Part shown: one piece after another, positions 5,034 to 21,873 of the stretch
How positions within the stretch are numbered: position 1 is the first letter of the stretch
Layout: each line of letters begins with the position of its first letter
IMG/VR virus record: IMGVR_UViG_3300026518_000064
Location: 1 to 21,873 of that record
Source: a virus
DNA: 21,873 bases
Strand: one strand, 5' to 3'
Notes under the pieces: generated by a model
Database searches by the model: none
Seen by the model: only the letters and a program-made list of their open reading frames with translations
What the model was told of the DNA's origin: nothing
Translations under genes and position numbers: made by a program

Positions 5034-5517
5034 TTCCTAGCCTTTTAAATGTAACTTCTTTATCATCGTTAGTGTTTACTTGTATTGCTGTATCTATCTT
5101 TGGAGCGAAGCGATCTGCTACACCTAAAGTAACTGCACTTTTATCTGTTGCTTCACTTATCATCTTATGCTCTGCAATAGTAGTGTTTTCATCTATCTTT
5201 TTTGCCATCACTTGAAGATTTTTAAGAGTTATTCTGTTTATAAATTCGAGGTGTTTTACTTTATCATCTACAACTTTTGAAACACTTTGCTGGTGTTCCG
5301 TTTTTAGTGTTCCAAAGTGTTCCATTTGCTCGTGTGCCTGTATAGAAGTTTGCACCATATGTTCCACAAGTGTTCCATTTTGTGCTATTAAACCCTTTGT
5401 TAAACGGCTGATTGTTGCTACACCTACACCGTGCTTTTTAGATAGCTCTCTTTGACTAAATGCTCCAGTATGAAAGTCTGCTAAAATCTTCTCTTTTTTA
5501 GTGTCACTTATTGCCAT
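5020..5517 (-). CDS. terS: Terminase small subunit
   Basis: A 165-residue protein predicted to recognise phage DNA and hand it to the large subunit. Seen: an N-terminal helix-turn-helix (about residues 8-40, FSQRELSKKHGVGVATISRL), then a long helical middle (about 50-120) likely used for ring assembly, and a C-terminal tail (KIDTAIQVNTNDDKEVTF) that could contact the large subunit. The ATG at 5517 overlaps the ParB-like gene by 14 bases, and the gene overlaps the large subunit by 14 bases. The identity rests on the HTH, the size and the position next to terL. Confidence 0.85.
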   Translation of the reverse strand: MAISDTKKEKILADFHTGAFSQRELSKKHGVGVATISRLTKGLIAQNGTLVEHMVQTSIQAHEQMEHFGTLKTEHQQSVSKVVDDKVKHLEFINRITLKNLQVMAKKIDENTTIAEHKMISEATDKSAVTLGVADRFAPKIDTAIQVNTNDDKEVTFKRLGNAND

Positions 5518-5752
5518 TCTTATAATCTTCCCAGTCTATCTCAACACCATTTATTCTAATCATAGTGTTTGATGTATAATCTATATATCTTTGTACTATC
5601 ACTTGTGCATATTTTTCATCTAGTAATATTGGATTAGTAAAACCAAACTCTTTTATACTACTTGCTATCTGTTGTATCTGATCTTCATTGTGTGTTCTTG
5701 CATTATTTGCATAAGGAATTAAATCAGATACTTTCTTGTTTATAATATCCAC
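5504..5752 (-). CDS. ParB-like N-terminus joined to a DNA methyltransferase C-terminus (internal-deletion remnant)
   Basis: This 82-residue protein looks like the two ends of a much larger gene. Residues 1-45 (KVSDLIPYANNARTHNEDQ, then IKEFGFTNPILLD) match the start of a ParB/sulfiredoxin-type domain. Residues from about 46 (EKYAQVIVQRYIDYTSN, then INGVEIDW) match the extreme C-terminus of phage ParB-methyltransferase proteins, where ELDPKYADVIVQRY-like sequence ends the methylase domain. Known: such fusions are around 400 residues and often sit just before terminase. The ParB catalytic core and all methyltransferase motifs (DPPY and the SAM site) are missing, so methylation is not expected. 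The reading frame is kept across the junction near 5612-5623. The start is GTG at 5752, with AAGGAG six bases upstream, overlapping the previous stop. It may still be translated as a small protein. Confidence 0.8.
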   Translation of the reverse strand: MDIINKKVSDLIPYANNARTHNEDQIQQIASSIKEFGFTNPILLDEKYAQVIVQRYIDYTSNTMIRINGVEIDWEDYKNGNK

Positions 5753-9997: not shown

Positions 9998-10762
9998 TCA
10001 ATCCTTTTGTTGTTGGTTTGTTGTGCTTGATTGTATTAATCCTGAAAGAAATAAATTTTTAGGAACTGTCATATTTATAAATCCTGTAGCACCTCTGTAT
10101 TCTACAGATATTTTATCTTCTATCTCATAAGCACTATTACAATCATAAATTTTATCTCCAATATTAAGTTTAAAATCTTTTAGTGAGTTAATATCTATCT
10201 CGTTAGGCTTTGCATATTTAGATAAGAATTTATTGTAGTTATATAAAGTTATTTTGTCTTTATCTCTAAGTTTTTTTATAACTCCATTTTTAAAAGCGTT
10301 TGGTCTTCTTATTCCTTTTCCACCCTCTGTAATATAATCAATAAACTCATCTAAAAAAAGAAAATCCTCTTCTTCTTCTTCTTTGTTTGGTTTATTATCT
10401 GGTTTATTATCTGGTATAGGTTGGATATTATCTTCTTTTCCATTGGCTAAAACCGCCAAATGGATTATTGAAAACCACTTAGTCCTATCGTATGGACTCT
10501 TATTGTAATTTCCTGTTGCTATAAGCCCAGCTTCTTCAAGCTTTTTTAGTGCTGTTTTTATTTGGCTTTCGCCTAAGTACGGGAATAATTTTTTCCAAGC
10601 TTCGACACTATTGTAAGTCCAAAAATTATTATCGTAAAAATTTTTATTATTTGCTTTATTTTTTAAGCACCAAAATTCTAAATTTTTATATATAATTGCA
10701 CAATTTACCCCGTACTTTTCTGCTATTTCTATATTAAAACTATGCTCCATAATATACACCAT
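9998..10762 (-). CDS. Winged-helix replication initiator-like protein
   Basis: A 254-residue protein likely to start phage DNA replication, comparable in layout to lambda O or DnaD-type organisers. Seen: an N-terminal winged helix (about residues 1-98) with EHSFNIEIAEKYGVNCAIIY, ESQIKTALKKLEEAGLI and NKSPYDRTKWFSI; a low-complexity linker (about 115-135) with PDNKPDNKP and a Glu run; then a C-terminal helical domain (about 135-250). The YDRTKWFSI box is frequent in phage replication proteins. The start may be the second ATG at 10748-10750, which has GGUG upstream; the ATG at 10762 has no ribosome site. It overlaps the HNH-like stub. No helicase or loader follows, so host proteins would be needed. 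Confidence 0.75.
   Translation of the reverse strand: MVYIMEHSFNIEIAEKYGVNCAIIYKNLEFWCLKNKANNKNFYDNNFWTYNSVEAWKKLFPYLGESQIKTALKKLEEAGLIATGNYNKSPYDRTKWFSIIHLAVLANGKEDNIQPIPDNKPDNKPNKEEEEEDFLFLDEFIDYITEGGKGIRRPNAFKNGVIKKLRDKDKITLYNYNKFLSKYAKPNEIDINSLKDFKLNIGDKIYDCNSAYEIEDKISVEYRGATGFINMTVPKNLFLSGLIQSSTTNQQQKD
10389..10412. repeat. Tandem 12-bp repeats inside the initiator gene, possible origin iterons
   Basis: GGTTTATTATCT occurs twice back to back (10389-10400 and 10401-10412), followed by a partial third GGT. The repeats encode the PDNKPDNKP linker between the DNA-binding and C-terminal domains, and lie beside a long purine-rich stretch. In lambda the origin iterons lie at the same place inside gene O. 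The position suggests an origin, but two short repeats alone are weak evidence. Confidence 0.35.
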
Positions 10763-10856
10763 AATCTAAATAATAATGAAAAGCTCTATGACAATTTGAG
10801 CAAATACTGACGGTTTCTATTCCACCGTCTTTTTTTGATTTTGGATAGTGTGTCAT
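10740..10856 (-). CDS. HNH-like stub, 38 residues
   Basis: The sequence begins MTHYPKSKKDGGIETVSICS and continues NCHRAFHYYLDYGVYYGA. The run HYPKSKKDGG..TV.IC.NCHRAFH resembles the second half of HNH nucleases, in which a His-containing strand leads to a CxxCH..(F/V)H motif. Only one CxxC is present and the usual N-terminal half is missing. The ATG overlaps the GIY-YIG stop (ATGA), and AAGGAAG lies about 7 bases upstream, so it is probably translated. It could be a minimal stand-alone protein or the surviving end of a truncated HNH gene; which of these is not clear. Confidence 0.55.
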   Translation of the reverse strand: MTHYPKSKKDGGIETVSICSNCHRAFHYYLDYGVYYGA

Positions 10857-11419
10857 ACTTCTTCCTTGTATAGCCATGAGTTATTTCTTCTAAACTTTGC
10901 CATTGCTTTTTCTTGTCTTTTTCTTTTTTCTTTAGATGAAATTTCTTTATGTTTTTTTGGATTTACTATTGCATCTGTATTTATAAGATTTTTTTCTTTA
11001 ATGAAGTTTGTATATAGTTGGGATAATTTTGAAATATCGTGATTTTTTCTTGCATATTGTATTCTGTTGAATAGCTGTATAGATATATCTTCAAACTTTT
11101 TATTTTTTGTATTGAAACTCTTTATTGTGTAGCTTTCATGTGAGTGTGTTTTTATCAGATAAGATACAGATTTTTTAATAGATGGAAATTCTTTAAACCA
11201 TTCTCCGAATGTATGATGCTCTGATAAATGCTTTTTTACTATTTTTTCGACATAAAATGCCGTAGACTTAGATAAAAGACCTATTTCATCGTATTCAAAA
11301 ATAGGCAAAGGGCAACTTGTTTGGATTTCTTTTATTCGCTCACTTAGTTTTCTTGATGTAACACCAATTTTACAGAAAACACCTGTATACATAATATAGA
11401 TTTTGTATTTTTTTTGCAT
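10853..11419 (-). CDS. GIY-YIG / T5orf172-type protein
   Basis: A 188-residue protein. Seen: an N-terminal domain (about residues 1-80) starting KIYIMYTGVFCKIGVTSRKL, with R28 in the following helix (SERIKEIQTSCP) and a later FYVEKIVKKHL and GEWFK. This is the T5orf172/MUG113 branch of the GIY-YIG fold, which covers nucleases and DNA-binding proteins. The C-terminal half is helical and very basic (KHKEISSKEKRKRQEKAMAK), likely to bind nucleic acid. The ATG has ACGGAG seven bases upstream, and both lie inside a predicted hairpin at the end of a structured leader (11420-11608). Known: phage GIY-YIG genes are often selfish free-standing nucleases under tight translational control. A host-takeover or regulatory role is the alternative. 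Confidence 0.75.
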   Translation of the reverse strand: MQKKYKIYIMYTGVFCKIGVTSRKLSERIKEIQTSCPLPIFEYDEIGLLSKSTAFYVEKIVKKHLSEHHTFGEWFKEFPSIKKSVSYLIKTHSHESYTIKSFNTKNKKFEDISIQLFNRIQYARKNHDISKLSQLYTNFIKEKNLINTDAIVNPKKHKEISSKEKRKRQEKAMAKFRRNNSWLYKEEV

Positions 11420-11608
11420 TGACTAGCTCCGTAACTACGAGATAGTGCAATAGAGGAATTGGTTGCAAGACCTTTAAAGCACTTTAATAACACTAAGCGG
11501 TCTTGCGGGCTACTTAGTGTTATTGAAATGTTTTAATTCGTACTAAAATAATAAAGTCAAACCCTCTTTCGAGGGCGAAGCTTAAAAGCATGACTTGATA
11601 TTTCAATA
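11420..11608 (-). ncRNA. Structured RNA leader with a pseudoknot upstream of the GIY-YIG gene
   Basis: No ORF fits this 229-base gap, but dense complementarity does (minus-strand RNA). An outer 9-bp stem pairs TATTGAAAT (11608-11600) with ATTTCAATA (11529-11521). Inside it AAGTCA (11596-11591) pairs with TGACTT (11559-11554), enclosing a small GCUU/AAGC hairpin and CCCTC-GAAA-GAGGG (11575-11562), which has a GNRA tetraloop. Next, AATAACACTAAG (11524-11513) pairs with CTTAGTGTTATT (11497-11486). Its loop holds GCAAGACC (11506-11499), which pairs with GGTCTTGC (11472-11465): an H-type pseudoknot. Finally CTC/GAG and TTGCA/TGCAA stems (11450-11414) cover the GGAG site and the start codon. The outer stem and the pseudoknot share bases 11521-11524, so they compete, as in a switch. 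The function is unknown; the pairings are seen directly. Confidence 0.65.
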
Positions 11609-11611
11609 GTA

Positions 11612-11617
11612 ATTATA
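11612..11617 (-). promoter_or_regulatory. Candidate promoter for the structured leader
   Basis: The minus strand has a consensus TATAAT (11617-11612) right after the VRR-NUC gene. Transcription from it would start around 11604-11607, which is the 5' edge of the outer stem of the leader. No -35 is clear. The match of predicted start and first stem supports an independent transcript. Confidence 0.5.
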
Positions 11618-11648
11618 TACTTTTCATCGTTAAAATTATATAAATTTT

Positions 11649-12047
11649 CTAATCTTTCATAAATTCTTTAATCGACTTAATTGCTTCGTCTGAACCATAC
11701 GCAACACATACGTTAAAATTCCTACTTTCTAGCTCCTGTATCCAAACTTTTTGATTATCTGATAACTTTGTATGGCTTATGCTATTTTTTCCACTCTTTA
11801 GAGTTCTAGCACGTTGTTTCATCTCTAAAAAGAGAATATCTCCTCTTTTAAATATAATCATATCGGGGAAACCTGAACTTACGCCCTCTTTTTTTAAATC
11901 GAAAGCTGTTTTTTTGTGTCTTTTCCCTCCATTTGGAACTGCAGTAAAAAGGATATTATTTCTCTTGCAGTAGTTTACTACTTCAATTTGCTCCTGATGT
12001 TCAGATTGTTTCTCTTTTAATAAACTTATATACTCTTTTGATGTCAT
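11649..12047 (-). CDS. VRR-NUC domain nuclease
   Basis: A 132-residue small nuclease of the PD-(D/E)XK fold. Seen: an N-terminal helix with E19 and E22 (HQEQIEVVNYCKRNN), then AVPNGGKRHKKTAFDLKKEG, the core GFPDMIIF with D62, and LFLEMKQ with E75 and K77, then a helix LSDNQKVWIQELESRNF. The strand GVSSGFPD and the ExK pair are typical of VRR-NUC. Known: stand-alone phage VRR-NUC proteins act on branched DNA such as Holliday junctions. Here it could resolve concatemer branches made by RecE-RecT. The ATG has AAGGAT about 9 bases upstream, beside a 21-base palindrome. It is the first gene after the tail and lipoprotein block. Confidence 0.88.
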   Translation of the reverse strand: MTSKEYISLLKEKQSEHQEQIEVVNYCKRNNILFTAVPNGGKRHKKTAFDLKKEGVSSGFPDMIIFKRGDILFLEMKQRARTLKSGKNSISHTKLSDNQKVWIQELESRNFNVCVAYGSDEAIKSIKEFMKD

Positions 12048-18537: not shown

Positions 18538-18809
18538 ATGACACAAGAATATTTAAAAAAAATTGTTAGGTATGAAAATGGTAAATTATATTGGATTGTA
18601 GATATGCAACCTAGAGGAAAAATCTAAAAATTATGAAAACTAATAATAGTGGTACAACTGGTGTTTGTTGGAATAAACAAGCAAATAACTGGAAGGCATA
18701 CATTCACGATAAAAATAAGAGAATTAACTTAGGTCATTATAAAAACAAAGAAGATGCTATCTCGGCACGAAAAAAAGCCGAGATAAAATATAACTATACT
18801 ATCAAATAA
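18538..18809 (+). pseudogene. Broken HNH homing endonuclease with AP2 domain
   Basis: The only plus-strand coding sequence. The first part (18538-18627, 29 residues, MTQEYLKKIVRYENGKLYWI...) matches the N-terminus of phage HNH homing nucleases and has AAGGA about 7 bases upstream. It then stops. The second part (18633-18809, 58 residues, open back to about 18615) is an AP2 DNA-binding domain: NNSGTTGVCWNKQANNWKAY, then RINLGHYKNKEDAISA. In intact genes the HNH core of about 70-100 residues lies between these. Here it is gone and the two parts are in different frames. It is therefore inactive as a nuclease, though the AP2 part could still be made. It points against all other genes, overlaps the tail tube stop by 8 bases, and splits the usual tube-chaperone pair, all as expected for an inserted mobile gene. 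Confidence 0.82.
18759..18784. repeat. 8-bp inverted repeat in the AP2 remnant
   Basis: ATCTCGGC (18759-18766) and GCCGAGAT (18777-18784) form a perfect stem with a 10-base loop holding seven A residues. It lies 18 bases past the tail tube stop on the minus strand, so it may end or stabilise the tail tube mRNA. There is no T run after either arm, so it is not a standard intrinsic terminator. Confidence 0.4.
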
Positions 18810-19785
18810 AAAAGCCGTTTTTTATTTGTACTGCTGGACTTGAGCCATCAAACAGTCTTAAAGTCAAAGTTCTGCTTAACATATCATTGTTTGAGCTGTC
18901 GCTGTACTTATCTGCTTTTGCAATATCACATTTAATCTCTACAGATTTTCCATTGACAAAATTGCCGTCTTTATCTAAACCAAGCTTTATAACTACAGCT
19001 TTTGCCTGTCCGCTTTCAATTAAAGATGCTTCTCTGCCGTAACTGTCCTTATCTACAAAGAACCCGAGTTCAAGTGTAAGAGCATAATCTGTAATCAAAT
19101 TCTTTTTAAGTCCACAAGTACCGCCCATTGTGTACAAGTCTGCCACTACTTCATTCATGGCAATAGTTGCGCTCTCTATTGGAAGACAAGTTCCATCAAG
19201 CAAAATAACGTCTGCGCAGCTTACAATCAAAATCGGCTCTTCTGTTAGAGTTACAGTAGGATTAACTTCTTTTGCTCCCTTTGCATCATCTAAATACCCC
19301 TGAAACGTATTTGTAACTGTCGCAGGCTCTCCGATTTTCATGTCTATTTTTGCACCACAAACTAGAGAGTTTGTCATAGACATTTTGTTATCATCAAGAT
19401 ACACAAGTGCCGATACTGTTGGCATTACCTCATTATTATTTGAGTATGTTACAGTCTCTTGTCCTACTGTAGTTGTGTCTATTGTTTCATCAAATCCTGC
19501 GCACATTAGTAGCCGTCCATACTCCGGTGGATTTGATAAAGCAGAGCCTCCCACGTCATTACTTCTCATGTTCATCTTTGCATCAAATGAAGTCTTAACA
19601 CGGCACAAATCAACAACGCTGTCCTTTGTGTTCATTTTTCCCGTTAGTCTGTTTATATCAACGCTTGTGAACTCTGGCGTAGGTATAACTGCATCTGTTG
19701 TCTCAATAAAGCCTGTAGGAGGCGTTGGCAGCGTTTCATTTGGACTTACAAATAATGAAGTCTTTTTTGTACTAATTATTGACAT
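18802..19785 (-). CDS. Major tail tube protein
   Basis: A 327-residue protein expected to form the tail tube. Seen: a Pro/Thr-rich start (SPNETLPTPPTGFIETTDAV), then beta-rich sequence throughout (ESATIAMNEVVADLYTMGGT, VVIKLGLDKDGNFVNGKSVE), ending with SRTLTLRLFDGSSPAVQIKN. The pattern of 'E...RL.TG' early and a late DYALTLELGFF / LRLFDG region is like phage tail tube proteins of siphoviruses lacking a sheath. It follows the tail terminator-like gene and leads to the chaperone and tape measure, the standard order. The name rests on this order plus the beta-rich character. Confidence 0.8.
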   Translation of the reverse strand: MSIISTKKTSLFVSPNETLPTPPTGFIETTDAVIPTPEFTSVDINRLTGKMNTKDSVVDLCRVKTSFDAKMNMRSNDVGGSALSNPPEYGRLLMCAGFDETIDTTTVGQETVTYSNNNEVMPTVSALVYLDDNKMSMTNSLVCGAKIDMKIGEPATVTNTFQGYLDDAKGAKEVNPTVTLTEEPILIVSCADVILLDGTCLPIESATIAMNEVVADLYTMGGTCGLKKNLITDYALTLELGFFVDKDSYGREASLIESGQAKAVVIKLGLDKDGNFVNGKSVEIKCDIAKADKYSDSSNNDMLSRTLTLRLFDGSSPAVQIKNGFFI

Positions 19786-21314: not shown

Positions 21315-21487
21315 TAACTATCCTTTTTAGCTCTTTTTCTTTTATGCTTCTTTGGTTCTGCTTCTATATCTTCGTTTTCTGTAATAGAACCATTATAGAA
21401 AAACGGTTCTTTAAAGAATTTCTCCTTAAAGAAGTTATTATCTACAAAGAACTTATTTTCAAAGTATTTGTTTGCAAAATAACTCAT
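21314..21487 (-). CDS. Small aromatic-doublet repeat protein after the capsid gene
   Basis: A 57-residue protein. Seen: six aromatic pairs at near five-residue spacing (YF 3-4, YF 8-9, FF 13-14, FF 19-20, FF 24-25, FF 29-30) in KYFENKFFVDNNFFKEKFF, then a linker, then a basic tail (KKHKRKRAKK). The ATG overlaps the capsid stop (TAATG), and the stop overlaps the next start. Known: phage genes just after the capsid often encode short 'YFA..YF' repeat proteins of unknown function. A head decoration or DNA-contact role is possible, given the basic tail, but not shown. Confidence 0.7.
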   Translation of the reverse strand: MSYFANKYFENKFFVDNNFFKEKFFKEPFFYNGSITENEDIEAEPKKHKRKRAKKDS

Positions 21488-21873
21488 TAGCTCAATCCGT
21501 TGAAGATTGCCCCAGCTGTGTTTTTAATATCTGTTGCAACTTTACCCCATGAGCCTTTGTCAAACAATACTGCATTTGTTGGTGATACTGTTCCTTTAAT
21601 GTACGAGTAACCTTTTACAAGTATGTTCATGGCAGTTTCTCTTTTGATACGTAGCATTGTGTTCTCTGCTGTACTATCAAAGTCTGTGTAAACACGTGGA
21701 GCTTCACTATCAACAACAACACCAGCTTCACTTGTAAGTGCCAGAACACCTTTACCTACTGCCATTGTAAATGATGGACTATCAACGATGATAACTGGAA
21801 GACCAAGAGATGCGAATTTACCTGTGTTGATTGTCATACCACCAACATTGTCCATTTTTTCACTGATGTTCAA
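21487..21873 (-). CDS. Major capsid protein, C-terminal part (start at 767 over the circle)
   Basis: This is the C-terminal 128 codons (to the end of the window) of the capsid gene whose start is at 767; the last 188 bases are the same DNA as 1-188. Seen: VDSPSFTMAVGKGVLALTSE, then RVYTDFDSTAENTMLRIKRE, a final TNAVLFDKGSWGKVATDIK and NTAGAIFNGLS. The frame is continuous through the join, so no part of the gene is lost. The mature protein length of 321 fits HK97-type shells. The variant base gives Val in this copy at the place that is Ile in the other. Confidence 0.85.
   Translation of the reverse strand: MNISEKMDNVGGMTINTGKFASLGLPVIIVDSPSFTMAVGKGVLALTSEAGVVVDSEAPRVYTDFDSTAENTMLRIKRETAMNILVKGYSYIKGTVSPTNAVLFDKGSWGKVATDIKNTAGAIFNGLS
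21686..21873. repeat. Terminal direct repeat, right copy
   Basis: Second copy of bases 1-188, with C at 21747 where the left copy has T at 62. In the capsid frame this changes ATT (Ile) to GTT (Val). The difference suggests reads from a mixed population, or a sequencing error at one end. Confidence 0.92.

Follow-up and report, generated by a model that had tools for sequence, protein, structure and literature searches.

The window analysed here, the whole stretch of 21,873 bases of a virus record, has a G+C content of 33.6%, and its likely genes lie nearly all on the minus strand. One portion of a probable capsid gene occurs at both ends (1-778 and 21487-21873; about 60 amino acids, one residue differing). 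The record thus probably represents a circularly permuted genome in its entirety, about 21.7 kb long and with a terminal repeat that has a slight mismatch. The region of interest is the 229-nt gap that extends on the minus strand from the stop of a VRR-NUC nuclease gene at 11649 to the start of a GIY-YIG nuclease gene at 11419. In a simple ORF-based gap scan, the phage has two gaps of more than 130 nt, and this is the larger one. An ORF check of the gap gave no convincing ORF covering 11419-11649, and the initial sequence-only reading was therefore correct in describing 11420-11617 as non-coding. The genes around the gap are the following:

9998-10762: replication initiation gene, next after the GIY-YIG gene and starting normally
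10853-11419, minus strand: GIY-YIG nuclease gene of the MUG113/T5orf172 type, 188 amino acids (Pfam PF13455, MUG113, E 2.6e-7)
11649-12047, minus strand: VRR-NUC nuclease gene, upstream of the leader (PF08774, matched to profile position 115 of 116)

The GIY-YIG protein retains the KIG motif, R28 and E58 that form invariant alignment columns among its relatives, and it is a probable free-standing homing-type nuclease; its AlphaFold model was weak and a PDB fold search was uninformative. A T5orf172/GIY-YIG gene that directly precedes a replication gene, as in the window, is also present in Vibrio phage 1.178.O (locus L086, 1441-2476), where its leader comprises only 57 nt. Elsewhere in the window, an orphan AP2-like ORF with a weak Pfam match below the cut-off lies on the strand opposite to the genes (18633-18809, plus strand) and terminates at a perfect 11-bp hairpin (18803-18828); it may represent the tail of a homing endonuclease that has decayed. 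A short protein encoded at 5504-5752 on the minus strand has a ParB-like N-terminus and a tail which we take to resemble the end of a DNA methylase, and its gene possibly suffered an internal deletion. Among the terminase relatives, L038, L063 and L070 give two matches to the ParB-like part, about 600 nt apart, and in L038 the stretch between the two matches reads as an HNH-like insertion.

The region is indeed non-coding, and its capacity to fold is far above chance. As a whole it folds better than its shuffles (z -3.5 and -4.2 in two runs), and of the 726 windows that were scanned, three of the four with the lowest z-scores fall into this region. The following elements were recognized in it:

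11541-11608, minus strand: D1, a closed, self-contained, Y-shaped domain of 68 nt (-20.7 kcal/mol, z -4.6)
11599-11608 with 11541-11550, minus strand: basal stem of D1, 10 bp
11591-11596 with 11554-11559, minus strand: second stem of D1, 6 bp
11580-11589, minus strand: small hairpin of D1
11561-11576, minus strand: GAAA-capped hairpin of D1, which is also a terminator-like site (GCCCTC GAAA GAGGGT, then TTGACTTT)
11474-11536, minus strand: H2, a hairpin with 24-nt arms (11474-11497 and 11513-11536) and a 15-nt loop, found by folding and by an inverted-repeat scan
11499-11506, minus strand: B, GCAAGACC, in the loop of H2
11465-11472, minus strand: B', GGUCUUGC, directly below H2 and a perfect complement of B, with which it would form the pseudoknot stem
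11414-11450, minus strand: weak hairpin around the Shine-Dalgarno sequence (GGAG, 11427-11430) and the AUG (11417-11419), z -2.0

According to the folding predictions, the leader consists of two independent parts, D1 and H2, instead of one domain enclosed by an outer stem. The 9-bp outer stem that had been proposed (11601-11609 with 11520-11528) costs 5.5 kcal/mol relative to the best fold and has a pair probability of at most 0.001; its 5' strand pairs locally with 11541-11550 instead. With such a cost and such a probability, the conflict between outer stem and pseudoknot at positions 11521-11524, from which a switch had been deduced, is not the relevant one, and that switch loses its support. 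D1 and H2 together form a compact unit of about 140 nt with z-scores of -6.0 on the minus and -6.1 on the plus strand. D1 alone has a preference, with a z-score of -4.6 on the minus strand versus -3.1 for the plus-strand RNA, and its three G-U pairs exist on the minus strand only and would be A-C on the plus strand. As the neighbouring genes are also encoded on this strand, the leader is better read as minus-strand RNA. From H2 alone the strand could not be decided, and neither RNA is clearly favoured by it: its z-score is -5.9 on the minus and -8.3 on the plus strand, where the RNA is more stable, its arms differ by three changes that are all transitions and pair slightly better on the plus strand, and it has one G-U pair on the minus and two on the plus strand.

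The upper 12 bp of H2 (stem A, 11513-11524 with 11486-11497) are perfect and exactly present as initially described, but they constitute only the upper half of the hairpin, the lower half, two 5-bp helices with mismatches, having been missed. The interleaved 8-bp stem 11499-11506 with 11465-11472 and the loops of 6, 1 and 13 nt were found exactly as claimed, and the predicted stems of 12 and 8 bp interleave with loops long enough to span them, as required for an H-type pseudoknot. No other A-B-A'-B' arrangement whose perfect stems have at least 10 and 7 bp exists in either orientation of the window. The stacking score of A plus B, -36.2 kcal/mol, was reached by none of 1500 dinucleotide shuffles of the leader (mean about -21), and it ranks at about the top 1% of real windows from six phage contigs if base composition is left uncorrected. 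Because B' begins directly below H2, the lower half of the hairpin must open before B can reach B', after which 13 nt are left to span the 12-bp stem. The rough energies amount to -17.5 kcal/mol for full H2, -11.6 for its upper 12 bp and -12.3 for the B duplex, and a pseudoknot penalty of about 7-9 kcal/mol has to be subtracted from the upper stem and the B duplex. On these estimates, the pseudoknot would differ little in energy from the hairpin with its lower half paired, and a bistability between hairpin and pseudoknot is plausible.

The signals next to these structures are less conspicuous. It had been thought that a hairpin hides the ribosome site, but the start hairpin is weak, and opening of the GIY-YIG start site requires 6.0 kcal/mol, which is rank 11 among 31 genes (4.9 +/- 2.3 for the other 30) and thus an ordinary accessibility. 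The TATAAT at 11612-11617 exists, but it was not among the promoter-like sites that were scored, and the transcript start deduced from it is unsupported. Promoter-like sites in the region are not in excess (11 versus 9.8 +/- 3.4 in shuffles); one on the plus strand starts at 11419. Terminator-like sites number two versus 0.4 expected, and the one at 11561-11576 has a 6-bp stem and an interrupted tail, TTGACTTT, with 5 T in 8.

Searches for relatives of the RNA were consistently negative. Among the Rfam 15 families, covering riboswitches, ribozymes, introns and sRNAs, there was no match at the gathering threshold, and the best sub-threshold matches had E-values above 3 and belonged to unrelated families, in agreement with the initial impression that this is not a recognized RNA. 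Using blastn against phages and plasmids, only short and weak matches were obtained for the RNA. A pattern scan of IMG/VR yielded a single match (L083), which lies inside a coding region, shares nothing else with the leader and was dismissed as chance, and a stricter scan of IMG/VR gave no match. A single-sequence covariance model, run on 780 kb of related loci and 17 records, recovered only the window and its own palindrome on the other strand. Kin of the phage were likewise sought in vain with the VRR-NUC protein, the 9165 protein, the exonuclease and the single GIY-YIG sequence as queries, and with a two-sequence GIY-YIG alignment in genomes; in the 12 records tested of terminase relatives (37-55% identity), no GIY-YIG match was detected.

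The two-sequence GIY-YIG alignment nevertheless led to nine viral loci, and the leader of the closest relative, L092 (56% identity over 75 amino acids), resembles that of the window. It is 161 nt long and non-coding, and it is preceded by a methylase gene and followed by the GIY-YIG gene. It contains a hairpin of 11 + 13 bp, made up of one helix between GGGCUUACUUGCU and GGUGAGUAAGUUC and a flanking one between GUCUUUACUAAG and CUUAGUAAGAC, and its loop includes UUCCCUCUCA, which pairs with the downstream 10-nt sequence UGAGAGGGGA. The Shine-Dalgarno sequence GAGAGGGG lies within this downstream strand and hence inside a predicted stem of 8-10 bp. The best interleaved pair scores -38.1, which was reached by one of 1500 shuffles; seven leader regions were examined and the comparison is post hoc, but this value would survive a correction for seven tests. 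The ordinary fold without the pseudoknot is only slightly better than shuffles (z -1.0). The order of the elements and the hairpin size are common to the L092 and window leaders, and the sequences are unrelated: alignments of the window leader with the leaders of L092 and L093 were no better than those of shuffles, sequence homology with either was therefore rejected, and as no sequence is shared, a common origin of the window and L092 leaders is unproven. The L092 leader is thus a suggestive parallel. In L093 (44% identity), the leader of the GIY-YIG gene is about 490 nt long, and its long hairpin lies far upstream, and the more distant relatives have leaders that are short or fold no better than chance.

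Two further observations concern L092 and L093. Downstream of the preceding ORF, positions 2051-2150 of L093 contain a hairpin of 19 bp that has a single mismatch and precedes a T run, and the loop of this hairpin holds GTACCACC, complementary to GGTGGTAC just upstream, so that an interleaved hairpin recurs close to a related GIY-YIG gene. L092 (2338-2351) and L093 (2190-2203) also share the 14-nt sequence AAAACCCTAAGNGT, in a local alignment that is reached by about 4% of shuffles; this sequence might mark the boundary of the nuclease cassette or serve as its target motif.

How does this leader compare with known leaders of phage genes? The available text of PMC2988022 describes RNA structures that limit the translation of the endonucleases I-TevI, I-TevII, I-TevIII, SegB and Aeh1 MobE. 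The window leader resembles these T4-type leaders in that a structure is located directly upstream of a phage nuclease gene (PMC3014915; PMC2988022, available text), and the L092 leader does so with its Shine-Dalgarno sequence inside a strong predicted stem. In the T4-type cases, as far as the available text goes, hairpins lie over the ribosome site, and several are accompanied by a late promoter that bypasses them (PMC2988022, PMC3014915). The window leader is different, as its ribosome site is not buried in a stable structure, its main structures lie upstream of this ordinarily accessible site, and it has a predicted pseudoknot and an extra domain in addition. A more similar case is seg43(25) of Aeromonas phage 25, a segD-like endonuclease gene, for which the available part of PMC2988022 describes a very stable hairpin just upstream of the ribosome site that does not cover it; this part of the paper leaves the effect of the hairpin on translation undetermined and mentions neither a pseudoknot nor a second domain. 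The other similar case is the gene 32 mRNA of T4 and T2, in which an H-type pseudoknot upstream of the start codon serves as a protein-bound translational operator (PMC3014915). The likeness consists in an H-type pseudoknot, predicted in our case, in a phage mRNA leader, but the gene 32 pseudoknot belongs to the gene of a single-stranded DNA-binding protein and nucleates the binding of gp32 along A+U-rich sequence (PMC3014915), whereas the gene in the window encodes a nuclease. By analogy, the arrangement in the window appears closer to seg43(25) or to the gene 32 operator than to a simple sequestration, and the leader may best be read as akin to, and more elaborate than, those of the hairpin-regulated T4-type endonuclease genes.

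What alternatives exist for a function as mRNA leader? The inverted repeat could act as double-stranded DNA, either as an operator or other protein-binding site, for example in an autorepression by the nuclease of the kind that I-TevI exerts at its own promoter, or as a replication-related site next to the replication genes. H2 is indeed the strongest inverted repeat in the DNA of the window (score 25.1 versus 20.7 for the best of six shuffles), it has the late genes on one side and the replication gene at 9998-10762 on the other, its arms differ by transitions only and favour no strand clearly, and proven or putative operator sites of I-TevI, I-TevII and I-TevIII overlap the promoters of these genes according to the available text of PMC2988022. 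However, usual operators have short arms and spacers rather than 24-nt arms and a 15-nt loop, D1 argues for a minus-strand RNA, and the interleaving of B and B' has no obvious use in DNA, so that we regard such a role as rather unlikely. A boundary function, in which D1 and H2 would be a terminator, an mRNA end or a processing structure for the upstream genes without any switch, draws on the terminator-like hairpin 11576-11561, on the surplus of such sites, and on the long hairpin with T run that follows the preceding gene in L093. As the stem has only 6 bp and is followed by an interrupted T tract (TTGACTTT), as H2 lacks such a run on the minus strand, and as terminators do not require a pairing of B with B', this function appears slightly less probable still.

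It would be surprising if D1 and H2 were a stand-alone, trans-acting phage RNA transcribed from either strand. Their compactness and low z-scores on both strands, as well as the plus-strand promoter-like site that starts at 11419, would fit such an RNA, but the homologue searches revealed no conservation, promoter-like sites are at chance level, and no clear terminator follows H2. Introns often host GIY-YIG genes (PMC2988022), and the region could for this reason be what is left of a self-splicing intron, or of another known ribozyme, in which the nuclease gene once resided. This is highly improbable, as Rfam gave no intron or ribozyme match even with lax filters, the leaders of L092 and L093 have no Rfam intron match either, the VRR-NUC domain is intact and the upstream gene thus not interrupted, and the next gene starts normally.

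We therefore prefer the interpretation that the region acts in cis and as RNA, namely as a 5' mRNA leader that tunes the expression of a probable free-standing GIY-YIG homing-type nuclease via a hairpin/pseudoknot equilibrium, and we assign to it a probability of roughly 45%. It is in line with the limitation of the translation of T4-type endonucleases by RNA structure (PMC3014915; PMC2988022, available text). The cis-regulatory leader of the sequence-only reading, absent from Rfam, thereby remains the best-supported view, but it has to do without the outer-stem switch, the hidden ribosome site and the mapped start. All in all, the leader is real, unusual and was in part misdescribed; it belongs to no known family and has one suggestive structural parallel, in L092.

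Mechanistically, we infer that the leader is transcribed from the minus strand, that the pseudoknot forms and that translation is affected thereby. D1 would fold first, as a closed domain, and H2 would form next, with its upper 12 bp being stable in either state. The two weak helices of the lower half of H2 would then compete with an H-type pseudoknot between the apical loop and the 8 nt immediately below the hairpin. Since the estimated energies of both states are similar, the choice between them could be made by a ribosome, by the position at which transcription starts, or by a protein, possibly the nuclease, and it would alter the access of ribosomes to the start codon 45 nt downstream.

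A wider generalization is that a class of phage GIY-YIG nuclease cassettes carry their own pseudoknotted leader, a long hairpin in two parts with a loop that pairs just below it. This leader would be a bistable translation switch absent from Rfam, whose sequence diverges fast while its architecture is kept, as in the window and L092. This idea is speculative and rather doubtful, but in another phage (L092), the gene of a related nuclease is preceded by a leader of similar predicted plan whose sequence is unrelated. If true, it would mean that a simple and testable RNA switch, with hairpin and pseudoknot as mutually exclusive states, travels with a mobile gene.
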